Shown: piece by piece, positions 25,859 to 37,832 of the stretch
Layout of the letters: each line of letters starts with the position of its first letter
Position numbering within the stretch: position 1 is the first letter of the stretch
Assembly: GCA_016926955.1 (NCBI GenBank)
Contig: JAFGNN010000007.1
Span: forward strand, 1-64,000
DNA: 64,000 nt
Source: Spirochaetales bacterium
GTDB lineage: Bacteria > Spirochaetota > Spirochaetia > Treponematales > UBA12059
Direction of reading: 5' to 3'
Position numbers and translations under genes: made by a program
Notes under the pieces: generated by a model
Told to the model about the DNA's origin: nothing
The model's database searches: none
The model's input: the letters and a program-made list of their open reading frames with translations, nothing else

Positions 25859-27971
25859 AGATTTCCTTCGGCCCGACGAGTTCCGGCGCCTTCTCGGGAT
25901 CGTCCGCCACGAGCGTGAAGGTCCATGAGGCGGGCGGCCCCGAACGCTCGCGCACGCCGTCCGCAGCCACGTACGAGGCAGCCACGGAAACGGTGTACCG
26001 ACCCTTGTCGAGGCGCGCCAGATCGAGGAAGGACCAGGCGCTGCCCGAGGTCTCGCGCCGGGCCACGAGCCGGCCCCTCGAGTCCCGCAACTCGAGCTCG
26101 TAACGGTTGGCTCCGGCCACCGCGGTCCACGAGATGTCCAGGGAGCTCGCGCGGCTCAAGTCCGCGACGGCGCCCGGGGCCGGGCGGAGTGGCGCGGGAA
26201 CGGCAAGCGGCTCGCCGCGCGACACGGAGAAGGTGGCGCTCGCGGGCGGCCCGAAGCGCGGGTTCCCCTCTGGATCCCTGCCTTCCGCGACGACGCGCCA
26301 ATGGTATTCGCCGGTTTCGAGCGAGGCGCCGCGGATCTCCAGGCTCGTGCCGCCCGAGGCGCGCTCGAGCGCTCCGCTGCCTCCGTCCGCGCTCCTGACC
26401 GTCACGCGGTACGATACGGCTCCGGCCACCGGGTCCCACGAGAGCGTCAGGGAACGGCTTTCGGGAAGCGGGACCGTTTCGCCGGAGCCCGGCATTCGGG
26501 GAAGCGGGGCGGCCAGGGGCTCGATGACCTCGAAGCGCCTCCGCTCCCCTCCGCCGTCGCTCGCGTCCAATCCCCAGAGGTAGGCCCCCGGCCCCGGCGG
26601 GGTGAAGCGCGCGGAAGCGGCGCCTTCGGCGAATTCCGCGATCGGCGCGCCCGGGTTCTCCGGGGTCCATACGCGCAGGCTCCCGGCCTCGCCGCTTCGC
26701 GCGAGCGTCAGCTCCGTCCCCGTCTCGAACCACGCGCCGTCCGCCGGAGCCAGCAAACGGTTCGGCGAAGCCTCCGTCGCGGCCGCAGCGCCGAGCGGAT
26801 CCGGAACGGGAGGAAGCGCGGCGATGGCCCGGCCGCTGACGGTGAAGGTGCGGGCCTCGCTCCACGCGCCCCCGTCCGCGCCGCCATAGCCGAACACGGC
26901 GCGCACGCGCCAGGCGTGTTCGCCCTCAACCTCGGGGACGAACGAAACGGTCTCGCCCGTCGTCCTGGCCGTTTCCGTGCCCTTTCCCGCCACGCCCGGT
27001 CCTGACAGCTCGAATTCGTAGGCCGCGGCCCCTTCGACCGGCGACCACGAGAGCGTCACCGTCTGGCCCGGATCGAACGAAGCGCCCGGACCCGGCGCGA
27101 AGGCTTCGGGCGCCGCCGATGAAAGGACCGAGAACCGGGAGACCGGGCTCGTCGCGCCGCCGGCGTCCCGGACGCGCCAGTGCCAGGCTCCGAGGCCGGA
27201 CGCGAAGGCCAGGCTCGACGCGTCCGATTCAAGCGCGAGCGCGTCGACGAAGTCCCGCGTACGCGAAAGCTCGACGAGCCAGGGTCCGGCGCCGCCCTCC
27301 CACGCGAGCTCGACGCGGACTACGTCCGGCGCCAAGGGAACCAGCAAAACTGCGCCGTATGCCGGCGACGAGGTTAGGATGCCGTAGGACACGACTCGGG
27401 ATCCGCCCGAGTCCGCGGCGAGCCCCGCTCCTCCGGACAGCACGGTTTCGAGCCCGTCGATCCGCGCCGTAGCGCTCCCCGCGGAAGCCCGCGCCTCGAC
27501 GGAGCCGTCGCCGCCTTCGAGTTCGAGCGCGCCGGAGCCGAGCTCGAGCTCGACTCCGGCGGCCTTCACGCGCAGCGCCGGAGCGTCGGCCGCGACGCCT
27601 TCGCGGCGGGCGGACACATTGCCTCCGACGAATTCCAGATAGGCGCCGGCCGGATCGAATTCGAGCAGGACGAGCGAATTCTCGGCCAGGGCGAGTTCGG
27701 TCCCGTCGTCGAGCAGCACGACGGCTTCCGAACCCGCGTCGGTCCGGATGGCCTCGCCCGCCCGCAGGGGGTCGTTGACGGAAAGCCGCGTCCAGACGGC
27801 GCGGCCGGCGGGTCGGCGCTGCGCAACCCGTTTCTTGAGGACGAGGGTCCCGACGCGCTCGCCCGAACCGGCGATGCCCGCTCCCAGGTCCAGCGCCAGG
27901 CCGACGACGCAGGCGATGAAAAGCGCCGCGCTCGCGAACGCCACCGCCAGGTCCGCCCGCCTCGGCTTCAC
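25842..27971 (-). CDS. FecR-domain protein with Fn3-like repeats (709 aa)
   Basis: The start is GTG, overlapping the cyclase stop (GTGA). An N-terminal membrane helix (about residues 8-30) is followed by a FecR domain (about 40-190; GEAIRTDAGSEAVVLLDDGTELALAENS is diagnostic). At least four fibronectin-type repeats with WSPVEGAAAYEFEL-like cores follow. FecR domains in spirochaetes are often not linked to iron uptake and may serve as periplasmic scaffolds. The position between a cyclase and a barrel-like protein suggests an envelope-spanning module. Confidence 0.8.
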   Translation of the reverse strand: MKPRRADLAVAFASAALFIACVVGLALDLGAGIAGSGERVGTLVLKKRVAQRRPAGRAVWTRLSVNDPLRAGEAIRTDAGSEAVVLLDDGTELALAENSLVLLEFDPAGAYLEFVGGNVSARREGVAADAPALRVKAAGVELELGSGALELEGGDGSVEARASAGSATARIDGLETVLSGGAGLAADSGGSRVVSYGILTSSPAYGAVLLVPLAPDVVRVELAWEGGAGPWLVELSRTRDFVDALALESDASSLAFASGLGAWHWRVRDAGGATSPVSRFSVLSSAAPEAFAPGPGASFDPGQTVTLSWSPVEGAAAYEFELSGPGVAGKGTETARTTGETVSFVPEVEGEHAWRVRAVFGYGGADGGAWSEARTFTVSGRAIAALPPVPDPLGAAAATEASPNRLLAPADGAWFETGTELTLARSGEAGSLRVWTPENPGAPIAEFAEGAASARFTPPGPGAYLWGLDASDGGGERRRFEVIEPLAAPLPRMPGSGETVPLPESRSLTLSWDPVAGAVSYRVTVRSADGGSGALERASGGTSLEIRGASLETGEYHWRVVAEGRDPEGNPRFGPPASATFSVSRGEPLAVPAPLRPAPGAVADLSRASSLDISWTAVAGANRYELELRDSRGRLVARRETSGSAWSFLDLARLDKGRYTVSVAASYVAADGVRERSGPPASWTFTLVADDPEKAPELVGPKEIYVLDD

Positions 27972-29998
27972 GGGCGCTCTCCGCCCGGCCCCGCTTCGAG
28001 GATGCGGTATTTCCGTTCGTCTTCAGCGACTGGCGTCCCGACCGGCGCGTCCGAGCCGAGCTGCGCGCGCAAGGCGTCCAGGTCTCGCGGCCGAGCCGGA
28101 TCGTCCTCGCGGCCGAGCAAGGCGTAGACGCGCAGAGCTTCGCTCTTCCCCTTCACTTCCACCGTAGGAAGCTCGCCGAAGGCCCAGCCCTCGCCGAGCT
28201 CGCGGGCGGCGCGCTCGGACAGCAGGATGTCGGTGCCGAAGGGCTTGTTGAGCGCTTCGATACGGGACGCCAGGTTGACCGCGTCGCCGATGACCGTGTA
28301 CTCCATGCGCCGCTCGGAACCGATCTGTCCCGCCAGCACGGGGCCCGCGTTGATGCCGATGCCGATGCGTATGACGGGATCCTCGGGACCTCCGCGGTCC
28401 GCGTTGAACTCCGCGAGCGACGAGCGCATGGCGAGGGCCCCGAGCGCCGCCGCTTCGGTGTCCCGTCCCGTGCCGACCGGCACGCCCCAGATGGCCATGA
28501 TCGCGTCGCCGACGAATTTGTCGACGGTGCCACCCGTCGCTTCGACGCAGGAAACCATGCGCGAAAGGTAGCGGTTCAGGAAGCCGACCACCCGTTCCGG
28601 CTGCATCGTTTCGGAGATGGCGGTGAACGAGCGGATGTCGGAGAACAGCACGGTAGCGACGCGCCGCTCGCCCCCGAGCCTGAGCTCGCCCTTCATGGCC
28701 AGTTCCGCGACGGTCTTGTTGACGAAGCGGCCGAACGCGTCCTTGATCTTCTCACGCTCGGCGAGGCCCCGGCACATTTCGCCGAAGGTTTCGATGAGGG
28801 CGCCAAGCTCGTCTCGCGTGGTGGACTTCGTCGCGAAGGCGAAATCGCCGCCTTCGACCCGCCGCGAGGCTTCCATGAGCACGGCCACCGGTTCCGTGAG
28901 GCTTCGGGAGAAGAACCAGGCGAGCGCGAGGGCGATCGAAAGAACCGCGCCCAGGATCAGGTAGTTGCGCCGCCCGATCGCTTCGACCGCCTCGAAGGCC
29001 AGGCTCGCGGGCGCTTCCGCGACGATGCCGACGCCGGCGAAGGCGGTCCGCGCGAACGCCCCGAGCCGTTCCTCGCCGTCCGCTCCCGGATAGCGCAGCA
29101 GGCCGTTCCCCGCGGGGCTGCCGCGGAGCGCCGTGACGATGGGCAGGGCGGACAGGTCGGACCGCGCCGCGAGCCGCCGGGAGTCGGCGGACAGGATCAG
29201 GACGCCTTCAGCGTTGACGGCCCAGGTCTCCACGATGCCGGGCGCGTCGAACGCGCCGATGAACGGGAGCGCCGAGACCACCGCGACCAGCGGAATTCCG
29301 GCGTCGGAGGACGGAACCGTGATCGATAGCGCGGGCAGGCCCGGCGCGAGCGTCGCGACTCCGACGCCGGGGGCGTTCCCCCTCCCGCTCGCCGCGCGCG
29401 CCGCGGCCTTGACGGACGCTTCCGTGGCCCCGAGCGCGGAAAGCGCCTGACGGTTCGCCAGGGCTTCTCCTCCGGGCCCTTCGACGTAGAGCAGACCGGC
29501 GTTCGCCGCCATGATCCGGGCGGTCGACTCGCCGGTCGGGTCGGCGCCCGCGAGCCTGAGCGCCAGGGCCGCCAGCTCCGCCATGGCGCGAAGCTCCGAT
29601 TCGACCGTTCGCGCCGTCAACTGGGCTATCGCGTGGTTGTTCTCCTCGACACGCGTCGTCGCGTCACGGAGGAAGAAGGTCGAGGCGAGCGCGTTCATGA
29701 CGAGCAGGGCGCTCACGAGCAGGGCGGAGACCATCGCCACGAGCTTGAGCCCGATCGGGAAGCGGACCTTCCTCCGAGCGCCGCCTTCCCGAAGCGCGGC
29801 GCCAAGCGGCGCGCGCGCGCGCGCCGCGTCCGATCCGGGGACGCCGAGCGACGCCGCTCCGCTCCCGGTCGACCGCATCCGCTCGGCCCGTCGGAGCAGA
29901 CCCCCTCCATCGGCCGATCCGGCATCCTTCGCGCCGACGCCCGCCACGCCGTCCATGGCTCCTCGGAGATCGGTCCGGTTCCCGCGCGCCTTCCTCAT
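27968..29998 (-). CDS. Membrane adenylate/guanylate cyclase, class III (about 676 aa)
   Basis: It probably makes cyclic AMP in response to an extracytoplasmic signal. A basic N-terminal stretch is followed by a transmembrane helix (LKLVAMVSALLVSALLVMNA), an extracytoplasmic sensor domain of Cache size (about 240 residues), a second helix (YLILGAVLSIALALAWFF), HAMP, and the catalytic domain. The latter has metal-binding Asp in LFSDIRSFTAISE and in VGDAIMAIWG, and the NLASRIEAL helix. The ORF-track start at 30079 overlaps the HU terminator, so translation must begin further in. I use MRKARGN (29998); MDGVAGVG is another option. Confidence 0.85.
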   Translation of the reverse strand: MRKARGNRTDLRGAMDGVAGVGAKDAGSADGGGLLRRAERMRSTGSGAASLGVPGSDAARARAPLGAALREGGARRKVRFPIGLKLVAMVSALLVSALLVMNALASTFFLRDATTRVEENNHAIAQLTARTVESELRAMAELAALALRLAGADPTGESTARIMAANAGLLYVEGPGGEALANRQALSALGATEASVKAAARAASGRGNAPGVGVATLAPGLPALSITVPSSDAGIPLVAVVSALPFIGAFDAPGIVETWAVNAEGVLILSADSRRLAARSDLSALPIVTALRGSPAGNGLLRYPGADGEERLGAFARTAFAGVGIVAEAPASLAFEAVEAIGRRNYLILGAVLSIALALAWFFSRSLTEPVAVLMEASRRVEGGDFAFATKSTTRDELGALIETFGEMCRGLAEREKIKDAFGRFVNKTVAELAMKGELRLGGERRVATVLFSDIRSFTAISETMQPERVVGFLNRYLSRMVSCVEATGGTVDKFVGDAIMAIWGVPVGTGRDTEAAALGALAMRSSLAEFNADRGGPEDPVIRIGIGINAGPVLAGQIGSERRMEYTVIGDAVNLASRIEALNKPFGTDILLSERAARELGEGWAFGELPTVEVKGKSEALRVYALLGREDDPARPRDLDALRAQLGSDAPVGTPVAEDERKYRILEAGPGGERP

Positions 29999-30077
29999 CC
30001 CTCGGAGGATACTCCACTCCGGCCCGCTCCGCCAGAACGCCCCGGCCCCGCACGTCGCGGCCGTAGACCGTTCAGGC

Positions 30078-30137
30078 AAAAAAAACGCCCCGCGTCACGT
30101 CTGACGGCGGGGCGGAGCCGCCCGCGAGTGGGCGGCC
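30078..30137 (-). terminator. Strong intrinsic terminator of the HU gene (tandem hairpins)
   Basis: On the minus strand a first hairpin (GCCGCCC/GGGCGGC) is followed by CGCCCCGC/GCGGGGCG and then eight T. It lies directly beyond the HU stop and separates HU from the cyclase operon. Confidence 0.9.
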
Positions 30138-30834: not shown

Positions 30835-32502
30835 TCAGCGATATCCGATCCCGATGCCGTCCACCCACAGGGTGCCGGTCTCGTTCAGGAAGACCGCGAA
30901 GTCTATCGATTCGACGAGCCGCGGATCGACCTCGAGCGTTACGGAATCGGCCCGCCGCGCGAAGGATCCCGCGTAGGTCCGGACCGCGAAGCGCCGCGAC
31001 CCGTCCCGGTTCCGGACGATGAACCCGATATAGCTGCCGCCGAACTGTCCGCCTTCCTTCCGTATCTCCTCGGCCTCGACGGACCACGAGGCCTCGAGCC
31101 GACCTTCGCCCGCCGCGACCGGCTTCGTGACGATGACGAACGCGGCGGTATCCGCATCCGCGGCAAGGCGGAGGCGCGGAGTCGCTTCGTTCGTCAGCTC
31201 CGCGAGGCTCGCGCCGCCCCCGGCGGGCACGGTCGCGCCGATGCCGAGCCCGAAGCCCGCGGGCGGCCCGGCCTTTCCCGAATCGGCGGAAAAGTCGGAG
31301 ACGAACGCGGCGACCGGTTCGAGCCCCGCTTCCCGTTCGCGGAAGGCAGCCGCGAGCACGTTCGCCTCCGACGCGAGCGCCTCGACCAGGACCGGCGCGT
31401 AGCTTTCGAAATCCGGATACGCGTCCCGCCGCGCCCGGAAAGCCTCGAGCAGCTCGACGACGCGCCGGATCGGATGGAAGCCATGGTCTTCCTCCCGGAG
31501 CAGCCGCGCCTCCCTCAGCCCGGGACCTCCGAGACCCAGATCCTCCTCCGCCAGGATGCAGGCGGCCCGCAGCACGAGCTCGTTCATGAAGACGGGGACC
31601 TGTCCGTACGCCTGGTCGCGCATGGTTTTCGCGACCGGCTCGAACAGGGCCTGGAGCCGCCGGTCGCCGGAATGCCGTTCGATCGCCGGGTTCACGAAGG
31701 CGTGGCCGAATTCGTGGACCGCCAGCGCAGCCAGGCTCGCGCCGCTCGGGAATTCCGGTCCGTCCGCGCCGAGCCCCGCCCTGATCACCTGGAAGATCTC
31801 CAGCCGCGCCGCATCGCCCGCCCCGAGCGTCCGGGTCGCCGCGTAGCCGCCCGACGGAAACATGGCAGGCGCGAACACGAAACGGTACTCGACCGGCAGG
31901 GCAGGGGCGTAGAAGTCCTCGAGCCACGCCGCGAGGCGCGGCCCTTCGAAACCCGCCGCCGACTCGCCGAGCCATCGCTCGTAGTCGCCGCGATGCCGCT
32001 CCAGGAAGGCGCCGAAATCCGAAGCCCCGTACAGTTCCGAAAGCTCGCGCGCGAAAGCCCCGAGCCGCCCCGGAAAAAGCGCCCGCTTCGCCAGATAGTC
32101 CGACCAGCCCGCCGCCGGGGGCGCGAAGGCGTCGCCGCCCTCGAGCGAGAGCGCGAAGGCGCAGGGCGCGTCATACGTGAAGCCCGTCCGCATGAGGCCC
32201 GCCGAGCGCCGGACGGCCTTCGATGACGAAAAACCGGCCAGATGATCGCGAAGCGCGCGGTAATACGCGTTGCCGCCGTCCGTACCGGGTCCGCGCCCCT
32301 TCCCGACCCAGTCCGTCCAGGCCTGGGCGCCCGCGAGCAGCTCGATCCGCGCGTCAACCTCGAAGCGCATGCCCGGCGCCACCTCGAGGGCGAATTCCGG
32401 CAAGGGCGAACCCGCCCGAGCTTGCGCCGCGCAGGCGGCGAAAATGAACGTCGTCGCGACGCCCGCGACGGAGGTTCGCAATATTCCCATGGCTTTCCGC
32501 AT
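30835..32502 (-). CDS. DUF4932-type predicted zinc metallopeptidase, exported (555 aa)
   Basis: A signal peptide (MGILRTSVAGVATTFIFAACAAQARA) marks an exported protein. The sequence LAVHEFGHAFVNP (about residue 262) is an HExxH zinc motif in the setting typical of DUF4932 proteins, with a downstream Glu-rich segment (NELVLRAACILAEED) that could give the third ligand. The C-terminal 140 residues form a beta-sandwich with SYIGFIVRNRDGSRRFAV and ILWVDGIGIGYR-like strands, perhaps carbohydrate-binding. It may be anchored as a lipoprotein (FAAC), though the residues after Cys (AAQARAG) also fit a signal peptidase I site. Substrate unknown. Confidence 0.75.
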   Translation of the reverse strand: MRKAMGILRTSVAGVATTFIFAACAAQARAGSPLPEFALEVAPGMRFEVDARIELLAGAQAWTDWVGKGRGPGTDGGNAYYRALRDHLAGFSSSKAVRRSAGLMRTGFTYDAPCAFALSLEGGDAFAPPAAGWSDYLAKRALFPGRLGAFARELSELYGASDFGAFLERHRGDYERWLGESAAGFEGPRLAAWLEDFYAPALPVEYRFVFAPAMFPSGGYAATRTLGAGDAARLEIFQVIRAGLGADGPEFPSGASLAALAVHEFGHAFVNPAIERHSGDRRLQALFEPVAKTMRDQAYGQVPVFMNELVLRAACILAEEDLGLGGPGLREARLLREEDHGFHPIRRVVELLEAFRARRDAYPDFESYAPVLVEALASEANVLAAAFREREAGLEPVAAFVSDFSADSGKAGPPAGFGLGIGATVPAGGGASLAELTNEATPRLRLAADADTAAFVIVTKPVAAGEGRLEASWSVEAEEIRKEGGQFGGSYIGFIVRNRDGSRRFAVRTYAGSFARRADSVTLEVDPRLVESIDFAVFLNETGTLWVDGIGIGYR

Positions 32503-33173: not shown

Positions 33174-33848
33174 CTAGCCCGTCGTCCCGCCCGCGCTATC
33201 GCCGCGTTTTCCCGGACGGGCGGCGTCGATGTCGGCCTCCAGGTCGAGCGTGGCCTCGAGCGTCTCGAGCTCCGCGCGCAACTCGGCCAGGTTGTCCTCC
33301 TGCAGGCTGTGCAACTGCCTCCGGTGGGCCGCTATGAGGGAGTCGAGCGCCGCTCCGACCCGCGCGCGCGCGTCCTCAACCTGCTCGCGCGAGCCCCCGC
33401 GCGATTCGATCTGCAACGCGAGCCTCGCCGCGCGCGCGGAAGCCTCGCCCTGGGCGGCGACGAAGGCGAAGGCGGCCGCGGCGTCCTTCGGGTCCTCCTC
33501 GACGTCGGCGGCGATGGCCCCGAGCAGGCCCGAGAGCTCGCGCAGCTTCGGCAGCAGCGCGTCGCGCGGCCCCAGGCCCTTCGCGGTGGCCTCCAGCGAG
33601 GAAGCCGCCTCGCGCGCGACGGCCGCGGCCCGCTTCGCCAGGGCCGGATCGACGAACTCGCCGATCGGCGTCGGCTTCCGTTCCCGCGCCATCCCAGAAA
33701 GCAGCGCCCAGAGCGCGGCGTAGCCCGCCACGCCCGCGCCCGCGCTCCACGTCAGGGGTATGCCCAGGACCAGCCAGAACAGGGCGAAGAGGACTCCGGC
33801 ACCACCGGCCGAGGCAAGCGCCCGCATCGATCCGCCTTGTTCTCTCAT
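33174..33848 (-). CDS. XpaC-like membrane protein (224 aa)
   Basis: Two N-terminal membrane segments (ASAGGAGVLFALFWLVLGIPL and GAGVAGYAALWALLSGM) are followed by a helical cytoplasmic domain with LPKLRELSGLLGAIAADVEEDPKD and a Glu/Ala-rich C terminus (EDNLAELRAELETLEATLDLEADI). This resembles the XpaC / 5-bromo-4-chloroindolyl-phosphate hydrolysis family, which is often encoded near TelA-type toxic-anion proteins. Its biochemical function is not established. The gene overlaps the vWA gene by four bases (ATGA), with GGGAGG upstream, so the two are translationally coupled. Confidence 0.6.
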   Translation of the reverse strand: MREQGGSMRALASAGGAGVLFALFWLVLGIPLTWSAGAGVAGYAALWALLSGMARERKPTPIGEFVDPALAKRAAAVAREAASSLEATAKGLGPRDALLPKLRELSGLLGAIAADVEEDPKDAAAAFAFVAAQGEASARAARLALQIESRGGSREQVEDARARVGAALDSLIAAHRRQLHSLQEDNLAELRAELETLEATLDLEADIDAARPGKRGDSAGGTTG

Positions 33849-34726
33849 GGCCGCGCCTCCCCGGCAGCCTCGAGCCGCGTCGCGTCGGCCTCGAGCAGGT
33901 TCGAAAGCGCCCGCGCCAGCTCCTCCTGGTCCGCGGCGCCCAGGACGCGCGCGCCGTAGGACTCGAGCGGCTCGAAGCGTCCCGCGTCGATGTCGAAGCC
34001 GATGAAACTGACCAGGGTCGAACTGGTGAACACCGGGTTATCCTCAGTCGAAGCGCTCGACCGGTTCGCGCGCACGGCCTCCAGCACGTCGGCCGGGTCG
34101 GCGCCGCGCGCGTTCTCGCCGTCGGTCACCACGATCAGCGAGCGGAGGATCAGACCCGAGAGGGCGAGGCGCTCGACGCCGGCCTCGATGGCCGAGCCGA
34201 TGGCCGTGGAGCCCTCCGGCATGAAGGATCTCGGATCCTCCACGATGACCCTGAGCCGCGCGAGTCCTTCCGCGTCGAGCGCGACGAGCGGCAGGAGCTC
34301 GCGGACCTCCGACGAGAAGGCGAGCACGCCCGCCTTCACGACCTGGCCCTCCGGCGCCTCGGCCGCGATGCGTTCGAGGGTGTCGGCAACCTGCGAAAAC
34401 GCCATCGAAGCCTGTACGTACTTGGCCCGACCGCCGGCCGCGGGCGCGGCGGCCATGGAGCCCGACACGTCCACCGCCACCACCACCGCTATCCCCAGGT
34501 CGTCGCGGGCGGCGAGCGCCGGGTTGAAATCCTCGCCGAAGCGGAGGACATAGCCGTCCTGCGCCGCGGCGGGGCTTTGCTCCGACCCGCCGGCCGCCTG
34601 GACGGCGACGGCGGAGCGCTCCCTCTCGGCGCAGCGCGCTATCGAGCTGCCCGCGACCACGACCAGGACGATCGCGATGATGGCGCTCCTGGGAGTATTG
34701 AAGAGCGGTCCCTTGCGCTTGTCCAT
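33845..34726 (-). CDS. Membrane-anchored von Willebrand factor A domain protein (293 aa)
   Basis: An N-terminal membrane anchor (AIIAIVLVVVAGSSIARC) precedes a vWA domain with a complete MIDAS site: DVSGS (about residue 88), Thr in GSTAIGSAI, and Asp in VVTDGE. vWA domains bind metal and a protein partner, so this probably assembles a complex. It follows the SBP-OmpA gene by 13 bases and overlaps XpaC by four. The alternative of a lipoprotein (ARC) is less likely because the segment lacks a proper lipobox. Confidence 0.8.
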   Translation of the reverse strand: MDKRKGPLFNTPRSAIIAIVLVVVAGSSIARCAERERSAVAVQAAGGSEQSPAAAQDGYVLRFGEDFNPALAARDDLGIAVVVAVDVSGSMAAAPAAGGRAKYVQASMAFSQVADTLERIAAEAPEGQVVKAGVLAFSSEVRELLPLVALDAEGLARLRVIVEDPRSFMPEGSTAIGSAIEAGVERLALSGLILRSLIVVTDGENARGADPADVLEAVRANRSSASTEDNPVFTSSTLVSFIGFDIDAGRFEPLESYGARVLGAADQEELARALSNLLEADATRLEAAGEARP

Positions 34727-34739
34727 CGCCGGCGGCCGC

Positions 34740-36425
34740 TTACTCGAAGCTGATGAAGCGGACCTCGACGCGGCGGTTGGCCGCGTGGTCCACGGGATCG
34801 ACCGGCGAGTCCCAGCCGCGCCCCTCGGTGACGACGCGCTCGGGGTCGACGCCGAAGCGCTCGACGAGCAGGGTCTTCACGAACTCCGCGCGCCGCTTGG
34901 AAATCAGCTTGGCCTGGGCGCTCGCCTCGACGAAGGCCGTCGCGCCCTGCGATCGGAATTCCTCCATCTTGCTCGTGTCCAGGTGCCCGATCAGCTTCAG
35001 GACCGTGGTGCCGAGGAACTCGGTCTGCTCCGCCACTCGCGCCAGGAGTCGCATGTTCTCCCGGATTTCCGCGGTATCCGAATCCGGGTCGAACTTGAGT
35101 TGCTGCGCCTCGAAGAAAAGGCGCACGTCGTTGGCCAGCACGGTCCGCTGGTTCTCCAGGTCGTTGATGTCGAGGGCCGCGTCGCGGTTGAAGCTGTCCT
35201 GGATGGTGTTGGCCTGCGCGTCGAAGCGGCCCGACTTGGCCGCGGCATCGATGCCCGTCCGCGCGATGGCGCGGTCCGCCTCGTAGCTCGCGTCGCCCGG
35301 AAGGGCGCCGAGCAGCTTGTAGTATTCCTGCGCAAGGTAGAAGAGCTTGTGCGCGCCGATCGGGTTCTCCGGGTCGAAGAACATGCGCGACTCGGGGAAG
35401 GTGGCCAGGTGCACCTCGTCGAGCATGCCCTTCGCCTCCGACACGCCGCCGGGCAGCTTGTAGAATTCCGCCATGGCCCGGTACGCGGGCGCCGGATCCT
35501 TGGCCAGCAGGTCCACGCCCTCGAAGATGCCGGCCACGAGGCCCGCCACCAGCTCCGGCTTCTCGCGCGCGAAGTCGTTGCGCGCCACGAACACGTCGGC
35601 GATCAGCTGGTTGGCGTCCTTCGAGGTGATGAGCAGGCGCGTACCCTTCACGAAGCCCTCGCTGCCCTCGTCCACCGCGTCGGTCAGGAAGGGCGTCCAG
35701 GTCACCCAGGCCGCGATGCCCGGATTGTCGCGGAAGGTCTCCAGGGCCTCGGGACCGTCGTCGACATGTACCACCTTGACCGAGCGCGGGTCGATGCCGA
35801 GCTGGGCGATGTACCAGAGCAGGAAGAAGGAGTAGGGAGCCGGCGAGCTCGTCAGGATGGTCTTGCCCTCGAGGTCGCGTCCCTGCTTCACGAAGTCGCG
35901 CACCAAAATGCCGTCGCCGCCGACCGACCAGTCGAAGAGGCCGATGGCCTGGGGCACCACGCGCTTGTCCGCCTTGAGCGCGTCGTAGAGCAGGGGCAGC
36001 CCGTCCATGCCGGACCAGATGACCGGCCAGCGTCCGGCGGCGAAGCCGTCGAGCTGGGCCTGCGCGCTCTCCTCCGGCACCAGCTCCACGGCGAAGCGGT
36101 GCGAGCGGTAGAACGCGGAATCGCGATTCGGCTTCGAGCCGCCGTTCGCGGCGAAGAGGGCCGCGTAACCGCCCCAGGTGTCCAGCGGTATGCGGAGGAG
36201 GGGGACGGGACCGTCGCCCAGGTCGACGCTCGAGAGGCTGTAGCCGCCGATGCCCGCGATGCGGAGCGGCTCGATGCTCGCCGCGGGCAGCCTGTCGGTG
36301 CCGGGCACCGCCGCCGTCGCGCCGGGGGTGGCCAGGGCGCCCTGCGGCGTCAGGAAGCGCCAGGCAAGGGCGGCGCCGACGATGACGAGCAGCACCACGA
36401 GTCCGATCCAGAACGATTTCTTCAT
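34740..36425 (-). CDS. Substrate-binding-protein/OmpA fusion, membrane anchored (561 aa)
   Basis: An N-terminal membrane helix (SFWIGLVVLLVIVGAALAWRF) is followed by a periplasmic substrate-binding-protein fold (about residues 50-380) of the NMT1/nitrate-sulfonate or phosphate type (LRIPLDTWGGYAALFAA, WPVIWSGMDGLPLLYD). The C terminus is an OmpA-like peptidoglycan-binding domain (IGHLDTS, SKRRAEFVKTLLVERFGV, NRRVEVRF). The start has GGAGG five bases before ATG. No permease or ATPase gene is adjacent, so the SBP part more likely senses a ligand at the cell wall than imports it. It forms an operon with the vWA and XpaC-like genes. Confidence 0.8.
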   Translation of the reverse strand: MKKSFWIGLVVLLVIVGAALAWRFLTPQGALATPGATAAVPGTDRLPAASIEPLRIAGIGGYSLSSVDLGDGPVPLLRIPLDTWGGYAALFAANGGSKPNRDSAFYRSHRFAVELVPEESAQAQLDGFAAGRWPVIWSGMDGLPLLYDALKADKRVVPQAIGLFDWSVGGDGILVRDFVKQGRDLEGKTILTSSPAPYSFFLLWYIAQLGIDPRSVKVVHVDDGPEALETFRDNPGIAAWVTWTPFLTDAVDEGSEGFVKGTRLLITSKDANQLIADVFVARNDFAREKPELVAGLVAGIFEGVDLLAKDPAPAYRAMAEFYKLPGGVSEAKGMLDEVHLATFPESRMFFDPENPIGAHKLFYLAQEYYKLLGALPGDASYEADRAIARTGIDAAAKSGRFDAQANTIQDSFNRDAALDINDLENQRTVLANDVRLFFEAQQLKFDPDSDTAEIRENMRLLARVAEQTEFLGTTVLKLIGHLDTSKMEEFRSQGATAFVEASAQAKLISKRRAEFVKTLLVERFGVDPERVVTEGRGWDSPVDPVDHAANRRVEVRFISFE

Positions 36426-36539
36426 CAGAGCCTCCGTCGACCGATCATGTCCGCGTCCGCGGCCGGGTGTCAATGCGCGGCTTTACCGCGCGGCGCCTTC
36501 CGCCCGCGGGCCGCACTTTGCCCGCGCCGCGCGGCGCCT

Positions 36540-37772
36540 TCAACCCAGCGCCAGCCGCATCTCGTTGGTGCGCGAGAAGCCGAGCTCCTCGTAGATCGGG
36601 CGGCCGGCCTCGCTCGCGTGGAGCGAGACGGCGCCGAAGCCTTGCTCCCGGCACCACGCGACCATGACGCGCATGAGCGCGTGCGCGAAGCCCCGCGCCC
36701 GCCACTCGGGCGCGACATACACGTTGACTATCCAGGCCCGGCGGAGCGCCGGGTCGGTCGGCGTCGGCTGGAAGGGCGCAACGATGACGCCTCCCCCCGC
36801 CACGACCTCGCCGCCCGCCTCCGCGAGCCAGGCGCGGTACGAGCCGTCCTTAAGGCCCCTCGCTATCTCCCGCTCCGCCGCGACGCGCATGCGCTCCACA
36901 TCCTCCAAGTCCTTCGAGCCCATGTCGACGAACATGGCGGCCCTCTGCCGCGCGATGAGCTCCGCGTCCGCGACCAGCGCCTCGCGGATCAGGGCGCCGT
37001 CCGGAAGCGGCGCCGCCATGTCCGCGCCGACGACGCCGTCCGCGGCGATGCGGAACGTCATGCCCTCGCGAGCGAACTCGACGCGCCCTCTACGCGCTTC
37101 CATCGGACCCGAAAGATGCGTGCCGAGCAGGCGGGTTCCCGCCGGAACGAGTTCGTCGAGCCGTTCCTCGAGATCCTCCGCGCCCATGTGCACAGAGCGG
37201 TCGCCGCCCGTGCCGTTCAGGTCGCAAACCGCGAGCCGGGCCCCGAGAGAGAGGTAAGCGCCCACCCGTTCGTCCCAGCGCGTGTCCGGCAGGTACTGGA
37301 ACAGGAGCCCGCCGCGCTCGCGCAAGCCCAGCCCGAGGGTCGGCAGCTCGTGGAACATCGGATAGCACTCGGCCTCGTAGGGACCGAACGAGAAGCCGGT
37401 TCCGGGCGCCGCCTCGACGGACTCGCACTCGTCGCGTATCCACGCCACGTAGGGATGCCCCGGCCGGATCGCCAGCGCCGCCAGCTCGAGTATCCGCTCG
37501 CGAGTCGCCCGCGCCGCCACGATCCGCGGCCCCTTCCCGCCCCCGCGCTCCTTCCACGCGTTGAAAAGCAGGAAGGGCGCGCCGAACACGTGGTCGCCGT
37601 GCGCGTGCGAAATGAAGAGCTCCTCGATCGCCCCCGCCCTCGCCCCAGCCGCCCCAAGCGAGGCGACTATGTCCGGCGGCGTCTCGACGAGCAGCCGCCC
37701 GTCCACAAGGAACGCGTTGCCCCGCAGCCCCGAGTTGAGGAAACCGCCCGTCCCGAGCACCCGCACCCGCAT
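36540..37772 (-). CDS. Metallo-beta-lactamase fold fused to GNAT acetyltransferase (410 aa)
   Basis: The first 230 residues are a metallo-beta-lactamase-fold hydrolase with the dinuclear site motif SHAHGDH (about residue 54) and later LGTHLSG. They resemble RNase Z-like or phosphodiesterase members. Residues about 250-410 are a GNAT N-acetyltransferase (VNVYVAPEWRARGFAHALM is the acetyl-CoA loop, then YEELGFSRTNEMRL). The start MRVRVLGTGG has GGGGGAGG upstream, so translation of both parts as one chain is clear. I do not know a characterised protein with this fusion. Substrates unknown. Confidence 0.85.
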   Translation of the reverse strand: MRVRVLGTGGFLNSGLRGNAFLVDGRLLVETPPDIVASLGAAGARAGAIEELFISHAHGDHVFGAPFLLFNAWKERGGGKGPRIVAARATRERILELAALAIRPGHPYVAWIRDECESVEAAPGTGFSFGPYEAECYPMFHELPTLGLGLRERGGLLFQYLPDTRWDERVGAYLSLGARLAVCDLNGTGGDRSVHMGAEDLEERLDELVPAGTRLLGTHLSGPMEARRGRVEFAREGMTFRIAADGVVGADMAAPLPDGALIREALVADAELIARQRAAMFVDMGSKDLEDVERMRVAAEREIARGLKDGSYRAWLAEAGGEVVAGGGVIVAPFQPTPTDPALRRAWIVNVYVAPEWRARGFAHALMRVMVAWCREQGFGAVSLHASEAGRPIYEELGFSRTNEMRLALG

Positions 37773-37802
37773 GCCGCACCTCCCCCGATTCCCTTTCCGG
37801 AA

Positions 37803-37832
37803 AGCGTAGCCCCGCGCGGCGGACGCGGGCAA
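37803..37832 (-). promoter_or_regulatory. Weak candidate promoter of the MBL-GNAT gene
   Basis: On the minus strand TTGCCC and TACGCT are separated by 18 bases, 31 bases before the start at 37772. A hairpin CCCCGGCC/GGCCGGGG lies further upstream at 37924-37946 without a U-tract, near the stop of the radical SAM gene. Confidence 0.3.

Follow-up and report, generated by a model that had tools for sequence, protein, structure and literature searches.

What can a solute-binding protein do when it is tethered both to the inner membrane and to the cell wall, with no transporter genes beside it? This question is raised by three genes on contig JAFGNN010000007.1 of the Spirochaetales bacterium assembly GCA_016926955.1, positions 1 to 64,000 of which, a stretch of 64,000 nucleotides, constitute the window analyzed here. 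The genes encode a solute-binding protein (SBP) fused to an OmpA domain, a membrane-anchored vWA protein, and an XpaC-like protein. We present evidence, drawn from sequence comparison, that this trio is a reduced member, free of both ATP-binding cassette (ABC) genes and TelA, of a module whose core comprises SBP-OmpA, vWA, and XpaC, together with TelA where that is present. The trio is probably kept as a sensor of the cell envelope that responds to a small molecule, likely an amine. That it operates as an envelope-stress or ligand-sensing tether or receptor, rather than as a transporter, is a reading to which we assign an even chance.

A check of the open reading frames (ORFs) and their translations recovered all three genes on the minus strand, with a gap of 13 bases between the SBP-OmpA and vWA genes (Table 1). 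The sequence-only reading of this DNA had described the same cassette, and its ORFs, domains, and four-base vWA/XpaC overlap were all recovered. It had also remarked that no permease, ATPase, or TelA gene adjoins the trio; this is borne out, and TelA (PF05816) is found nowhere in the source genome.

The first protein is predicted, from profile matches and a structural model, to be an N-terminally anchored SBP of the NMT1/TauA fold joined to an OmpA domain with predicted peptidoglycan binding. Both domains score above their Pfam cut-offs (NMT1, E = 5.5e-5, 23.6 bits versus a cut-off of 20.5; OmpA, E = 1.4e-7, 32.2 bits versus 27.2), and a profile search of the PDB with the fusion family returned the OmpA-like peptidoglycan-binding domain of Acinetobacter (3td3, E = 3.8e-12) and TauA (1e-10). 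The AlphaFold2 model has a mean predicted local distance difference test (pLDDT) score of 82.1 and a predicted template modeling score of 0.74, and the best Foldseek match to its SBP part is TauA (6ssy, E = 2.6e-14). Scores of the SBP domain against NCBIfam are far lower than the cut-offs for the SsuA family (42.2 versus 163.5 bits) and the taurine family (22.1 versus 304.25 bits). The N-terminal anchor is kept in type-I fusions, which share no conserved cleavage site. In the OmpA domain, D483 and R512, which we take to be diaminopimelate ligands, are invariant in the 16 sequences aligned.

The resemblance to TauA permits a prediction of ligand class. In TauA, the sulfonate is contacted by the side chain of Gln30 and the main chain of Gly61, Gly79, and Thr132, and the amine by Glu106, Thr132, and Asp205, of which Asp205 confers selectivity for taurine (PMC6906117). 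Profile alignments equate E106, W176, and D205 of TauA with D171, W243, and D277 of SBP-OmpA, and the sulfonate contacts are replaced: G61 by A121, G79 by D141, and T132 by P197 in more than one alignment, and Q30 by W84 in one multiple alignment only. None of W84, D141, D165, W166, D171, W243, and D277 varies among the 15 type-I fusions. A pocket that is both acidic and aromatic and retains the amine contacts would favor an amine or cationic ligand. Since the amine-binding acids are kept and the sulfonate contacts lost, an anionic ligand is argued against, and the toxic anions put forward by the sequence-only reading are disfavored.

The vWA partner matches Pfam VWA_2 (E = 1.6e-8, 35.6 bits versus a cut-off of 27), and the complete metal-ion-dependent adhesion site (MIDAS; DxSxS...T...D) that had been noted in it is indeed present, with D86, S88, S90, T174, and D202 unchanged across 13 vWA homologues. 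The XpaC-like protein matches the Pfam family XpaC/Halogen_Hydrol (PF10112) with E = 9.3e-5 and 22.9 bits, under the cut-off of 29.8. Its identity as an XpaC is drawn from same-operon orthologues that score far above this threshold; the XpaC of one such relative (L070) reaches 122.8 bits, and homology to the window protein is supported by alignment and iterative search. The predicted structure is all-helical (pLDDT 70), and the model yielded no significant structural match.

XpaC is accompanied by TelA in many of the relatives described below. TelA was absent from all 10 genomes of the organism's family that were tested (the source genome and nine others) and from the genome of trio locus L036. 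XpaC proteins from TelA-bearing genomes or loci contain a YYxD segment, with LYLxKT in its stead in two contigs from a viral collection; of the cassette XpaCs from genomes without TelA, five were read across this stretch, and all five have QGE- or NGE-like residues in place of YYxD. The change is consistent with loss of a hypothetical contact with TelA. An exception to this covariation is TelA-less genome G013, which has a second XpaC, in a different operon (L118), that keeps the motif AQYLDAT.

These observations bear on an explanation in which the complex is a toxicant or antimicrobial resistance unit of the TelA/Ter type: its SBP would recognize a toxicant such as tellurite, a cationic peptide, or a wall-active drug, and the complex would keep the membrane stable against it. 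XpaC and TelA form an operon pair within the four-gene form of the module, the cluster is carried by phages and plasmids, and a Listeria telA (lmo1967) mutant shows heightened sensitivity to nisin and tellurite, according to the passage of PMC12791056 that cites Collins 2010. Against this stand the lack of TelA in the source genome and the nine other family members and a pocket unlike that of an oxyanion-binding protein, and we regard a resistance role as quite unlikely for the trio.

The genomic neighborhood of the fusion reveals a series of related clusters. The sequence-only reading had looked to linkage with vWA, XpaC, and TelA as a check on its proposal, and neighborhood analysis showed this linkage to be conserved far beyond close relatives. 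In two loci from other Spirochaetota families (L070 and L071), one run of genes encodes an SBP, SBP-OmpA, permease, ATPase, vWA, XpaC, and TelA. Vibrio megaplasmids of 240-320 kb (L064, 8458-18234; L065) carry genes for an ATPase, SBP-OmpA, vWA, a second SBP-OmpA, an XpaC-like protein, TelA, an SBP, and a permease, and a similar block with ABC genes and two SBP-OmpA genes is present on the 595-kb phage LR756511.1 (L087, 9899-18461) and on large viral-collection contigs (L109-L112). The fusion is matched by phrog_25518, a PHROG of unknown function. In some of these phage and viral blocks a coiled-coil protein stands where TelA would be, encoded between the XpaC-like and SBP genes (L087, 14819-15652; L111, 15383-16219; L112, 15540-16331). 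We considered PspA as the identity of the 277-residue phage protein and rejected it; nothing scored above a Pfam cut-off, the coiled-coil matches in the PDB were weak, and the likeness to PspA is by eye only.

Four further loci (L037-L040) have an XpaC-TelA-SBP/OmpA-vWA operon without ABC genes, and the same four genes occur in the same order, again without ABC genes, on four viral-collection contigs of 84-178 kb (L137-L140). Because ten ORFs neighboring this quartet on the four contigs had no PHROG match, the viral status of the contigs rests on their assignment by the collection. The quartet persists by itself even there, which suggests that it has a use with no importer clustered beside it. 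Elsewhere, an SBP-OmpA-vWA pair is found with XpaC and TelA at a separate locus (L034/L066 and L067). The record that holds L034, DYOB01000014.1, is titled Borreliella garinii; it is an environmental metagenome-assembled genome (MAG) whose proteins are the same as those of a contig of genome G323, from another spirochaete family, and the title looks wrong. Finally, the window and four other loci (L031, L032, L035, and L036) have SBP-OmpA-vWA-XpaC with no TelA anywhere, and L033 begins like the window trio on a contig that stops inside XpaC.

Trees were built for the SBP domain with FastTree and for the whole fusion with IQ-TREE. In both, the window clade (bootstrap 100) and the quartet clade are sisters (joint support 75), and ABC-linked fusions fall outside. 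The trees contain a series from ABC-linked fusions (L070 and L071) through the TelA quartet (L037-L040 and L137-L139) to the trio of the window clade. On the simplest reading, ABC genes would have been lost first and TelA next; the trees alone also allow the reverse order. By running from the whole transporter cluster to the quartet and then to the trio, this series sets the module's transport part apart from its sensing or scaffolding part. That giant phages and large plasmids carry the module suggests that it is of benefit while a phage infects or a plasmid is carried.

The ABC-linked members also raise the possibility that SBP-OmpA hands its ligand over to an ABC importer whose genes lie elsewhere in the genome, the anchor concentrating substrate at the membrane and vWA and XpaC serving as accessories. 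In L070/L071, the Vibrio plasmids, and the 595-kb phage, genes for a TauC-like permease and an ATPase accompany the fusion in one cluster, the SBP domain of the fusion is strongly constrained, and the source genome holds two TauC-like ABC systems (on contigs C45 and C64). A role of this kind has been proposed, in which the OmpA domain attaches to peptidoglycan while the SBP captures the solute of a linked transporter (PMC11237479). Each of the two TauC-like systems, however, has its own adjacent SBP, on which ground we rejected the plain reading of an importer SBP whose own permease is encoded at a distance. No close homologue of the cluster permease was found in the source genome, where the best permease matches are only 24-25% identical, and no second SBP of this type was found there; moreover, the ABC-free quartet exists as a unit by itself. 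We therefore consider service to a distant importer unlikely. Clustering of the SBP with ABC importers that use a distant permease had been named in advance as a result that would tell against a sensing complex; the nearest non-fusion relatives are indeed ABC-linked, forming a clade of soluble SBPs among which are those encoded next to the fusion in L070/L071, yet no distant permease is evident. The claim that a tethered SBP cannot be an importer component is not supported for the family, in which ABC genes share the operon in L070/L071, the Vibrio plasmids, and phage, and fits the reduced form in the window, for which a non-importer role is plausible.

The three genes were also compared for co-occurrence and selection. 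Across the 23 available genomes of the organism's family, most genomes in the analysis being MAGs, XpaC and vWA of this type were found only in G000, G001, G002, G004, G008, and G013 (six of the 23, two weak generic vWA matches aside). SBP-OmpA was found in the same genomes except G002, whose contig begins inside vWA. The trio is thus all-or-none in the family, and its carriers belong to only three genera. The vWA gene adjoins the fusion in each of the 10 named Spirochaetota loci that carry the fusion, and together these patterns exceed what chance would give. The trio is under purifying selection, the ratio of nonsynonymous to synonymous substitution rates (dN/dS) against G001 being lowest in the fusion (0.057), followed by XpaC (0.135) and vWA (0.34). 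From joint presence and absence, fusion-vWA adjacency, and low dN/dS, it follows that the three genes are maintained together. If the fusion were mainly a structural tether from inner membrane to wall, with ligand binding vestigial, conservation of the anchor and OmpA domain would be expected and is seen; constraint on the SBP domain, however, is no weaker than on the OmpA domain (dN/dS 0.051 versus 0.102, against G001), and the putative pocket residues W84, D141, D171, W243, and D277 do not vary in any type-I fusion. A mainly structural role is very improbable.

The comparisons establish gene content, domain architecture, co-occurrence, and purifying selection for the trio, together with its origin in a family that elsewhere has a TauC-type ABC importer and TelA. 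For the sensing tether or receptor we infer a topology, ligand, set of protein contacts, and signaling route. An N-terminal helix would hold SBP-OmpA in the inner membrane, in a topology like that of MotB or Pal, and its OmpA domain would grip peptidoglycan, keeping the SBP clamp in the periplasm. The clamp may bind a small, probably amine-bearing or cationic ligand, and vWA, as partner in the periplasm, would then relay the state of the ligand or wall to XpaC. The hydrophobic hairpin of XpaC and its helical domain, which would face the cytosol, could bring that state to the cytosolic side. Several points weigh against this reading: the alignment of TauA with SBP-OmpA is at about 16% identity, vWA changes fast in sequence outside the MIDAS, the topology is based on hydropathy and analogy, XpaC signaling and contact among the three proteins are conjectural, an importer partner may be too divergent for recognition, and the genomes behind it are mostly MAGs. 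In its favor we count a second architecture that couples similar parts, in which an SBP_bac_11-vWA fusion is followed by XpaC, a membrane-anchored protein without a Pfam match, and TelA (L100, 1161-5583); it recurs in L118 (89-3209), where no TelA was seen.

A broader form of this proposal can be advanced only tentatively, as possible though doubtful. SBP-OmpA, vWA, XpaC, and TelA would constitute a trans-envelope receptor, with or without ABC genes, in which a wall-bolted clamp signals via vWA to membrane-remodeling proteins; phages and plasmids would carry it to protect the host envelope, and the spirochaete trio would be a minimal receptor, with XpaC and without TelA. TelA and XpaC are widespread, and their operon tie to a wall-anchored solute-binding receptor and vWA provides a concrete, testable model with a predicted ligand class.

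Table 1. Features of the SBP-OmpA/vWA/XpaC operon, in window coordinates.
Feature	Position	Strand	Basis or remark
SBP-OmpA fusion, 561 aa	34740-36425	-	ATG at 36425; Pfam, AlphaFold2 model, Foldseek
N-terminal hydrophobic anchor of SBP-OmpA, residues 5-24, predicted uncleaved, N-in/C-out	36354-36413	-	hydropathy; inference
SBP domain, residues 50-395, NMT1/SsuA/TauA fold, putative pocket acids D141, D171, D277	35241-36278	-	Pfam, profile, model, alignments
OmpA peptidoglycan-binding domain (predicted), residues 426-561, conserved D483, R512	34743-35150	-	Pfam, profile match to 3td3
Membrane-anchored vWA protein, 293 aa, domain predicted periplasmic	33845-34726	-	Pfam, MIDAS conservation, hydropathy
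MIDAS motif DVSGS, residues 86-90 of vWA	34457-34471	-	invariant in 13 homologues
MIDAS T174 of vWA	34205-34207	-	invariant in 13 homologues
MIDAS D202 of vWA	34121-34123	-	invariant in 13 homologues
XpaC-like protein, 224 aa, N-terminal hydrophobic hairpin and helical domain	33174-33848	-	Pfam, alignment, predicted structure; has no YYxD motif, unlike XpaCs linked to TelA
vWA stop/XpaC start overlap, 4 bases	33845-33848	-	ORF coordinates
Sigma-70-like promoter match TTGACA-18-CATGAT, upstream of operon	36444-36473	-	consensus match only

The operon is preceded directly by a gene (36540-37832, minus strand) whose product combines a metallo-beta-lactamase-fold domain and a GNAT acetyltransferase domain in one chain. 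Downstream lies a DUF4932 protein gene (30835-32502, minus strand; E = 3.9e-23), and the window also encodes a protein with HAMP and adenylate/guanylate cyclase domains (27968-30079, minus strand). An anti-phage defense family was considered as the identity of the trio and rejected, PADLOC giving no match for the three proteins.

Known systems share parts of this arrangement. An operon of SBP-OmpA with ABC genes and PspA is already published: the PspA/Snf7-linked operon of Ravi et al. (mSystems 2024, PMC11237479) encodes an ABC ATPase, a permease, and a PBPB-OmpA protein. Both it and the window have a solute-binding/OmpA fusion, and the published one is linked to membrane-stress proteins; the window lacks its ABC genes, PspA, and AAA+ ATPase, the only PspA_IM30 match in the source genome lying on another contig (C45), and the main text of that paper does not include TelA, XpaC, or vWA. 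In literature of partial coverage, we found no description of the SBP-OmpA/vWA/XpaC/TelA core, its ABC-free and TelA-free form, or its carriage by plasmids and phages. The XpaC-TelA operon (PF10112 and PF05816; lmo1966-lmo1967 in Listeria) resembles the window in its XpaC-like protein, which TelA adjoins in the window's relatives, whereas the source genome has no TelA and a diverged XpaC under the Pfam cut-off, and the Listeria operon as described is without SBP-OmpA and vWA. The SBPs of TauABC and SsuABC (TauA, 6ssy; SsuA, 2x26) share the fold and the two acidic amine-contact positions; the window protein differs in being fused to OmpA, anchored, without a permease, not conserved at the sulfonate contacts, and far under the NCBIfam cut-offs. 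Finally, anchored OmpA proteins of the MotB/Pal type are similar in profile matches (3td3 and MotB entries) and in their anchor-plus-OmpA layout, and the window protein is distinguished from them by the large SBP clamp that it carries between anchor and OmpA domain.

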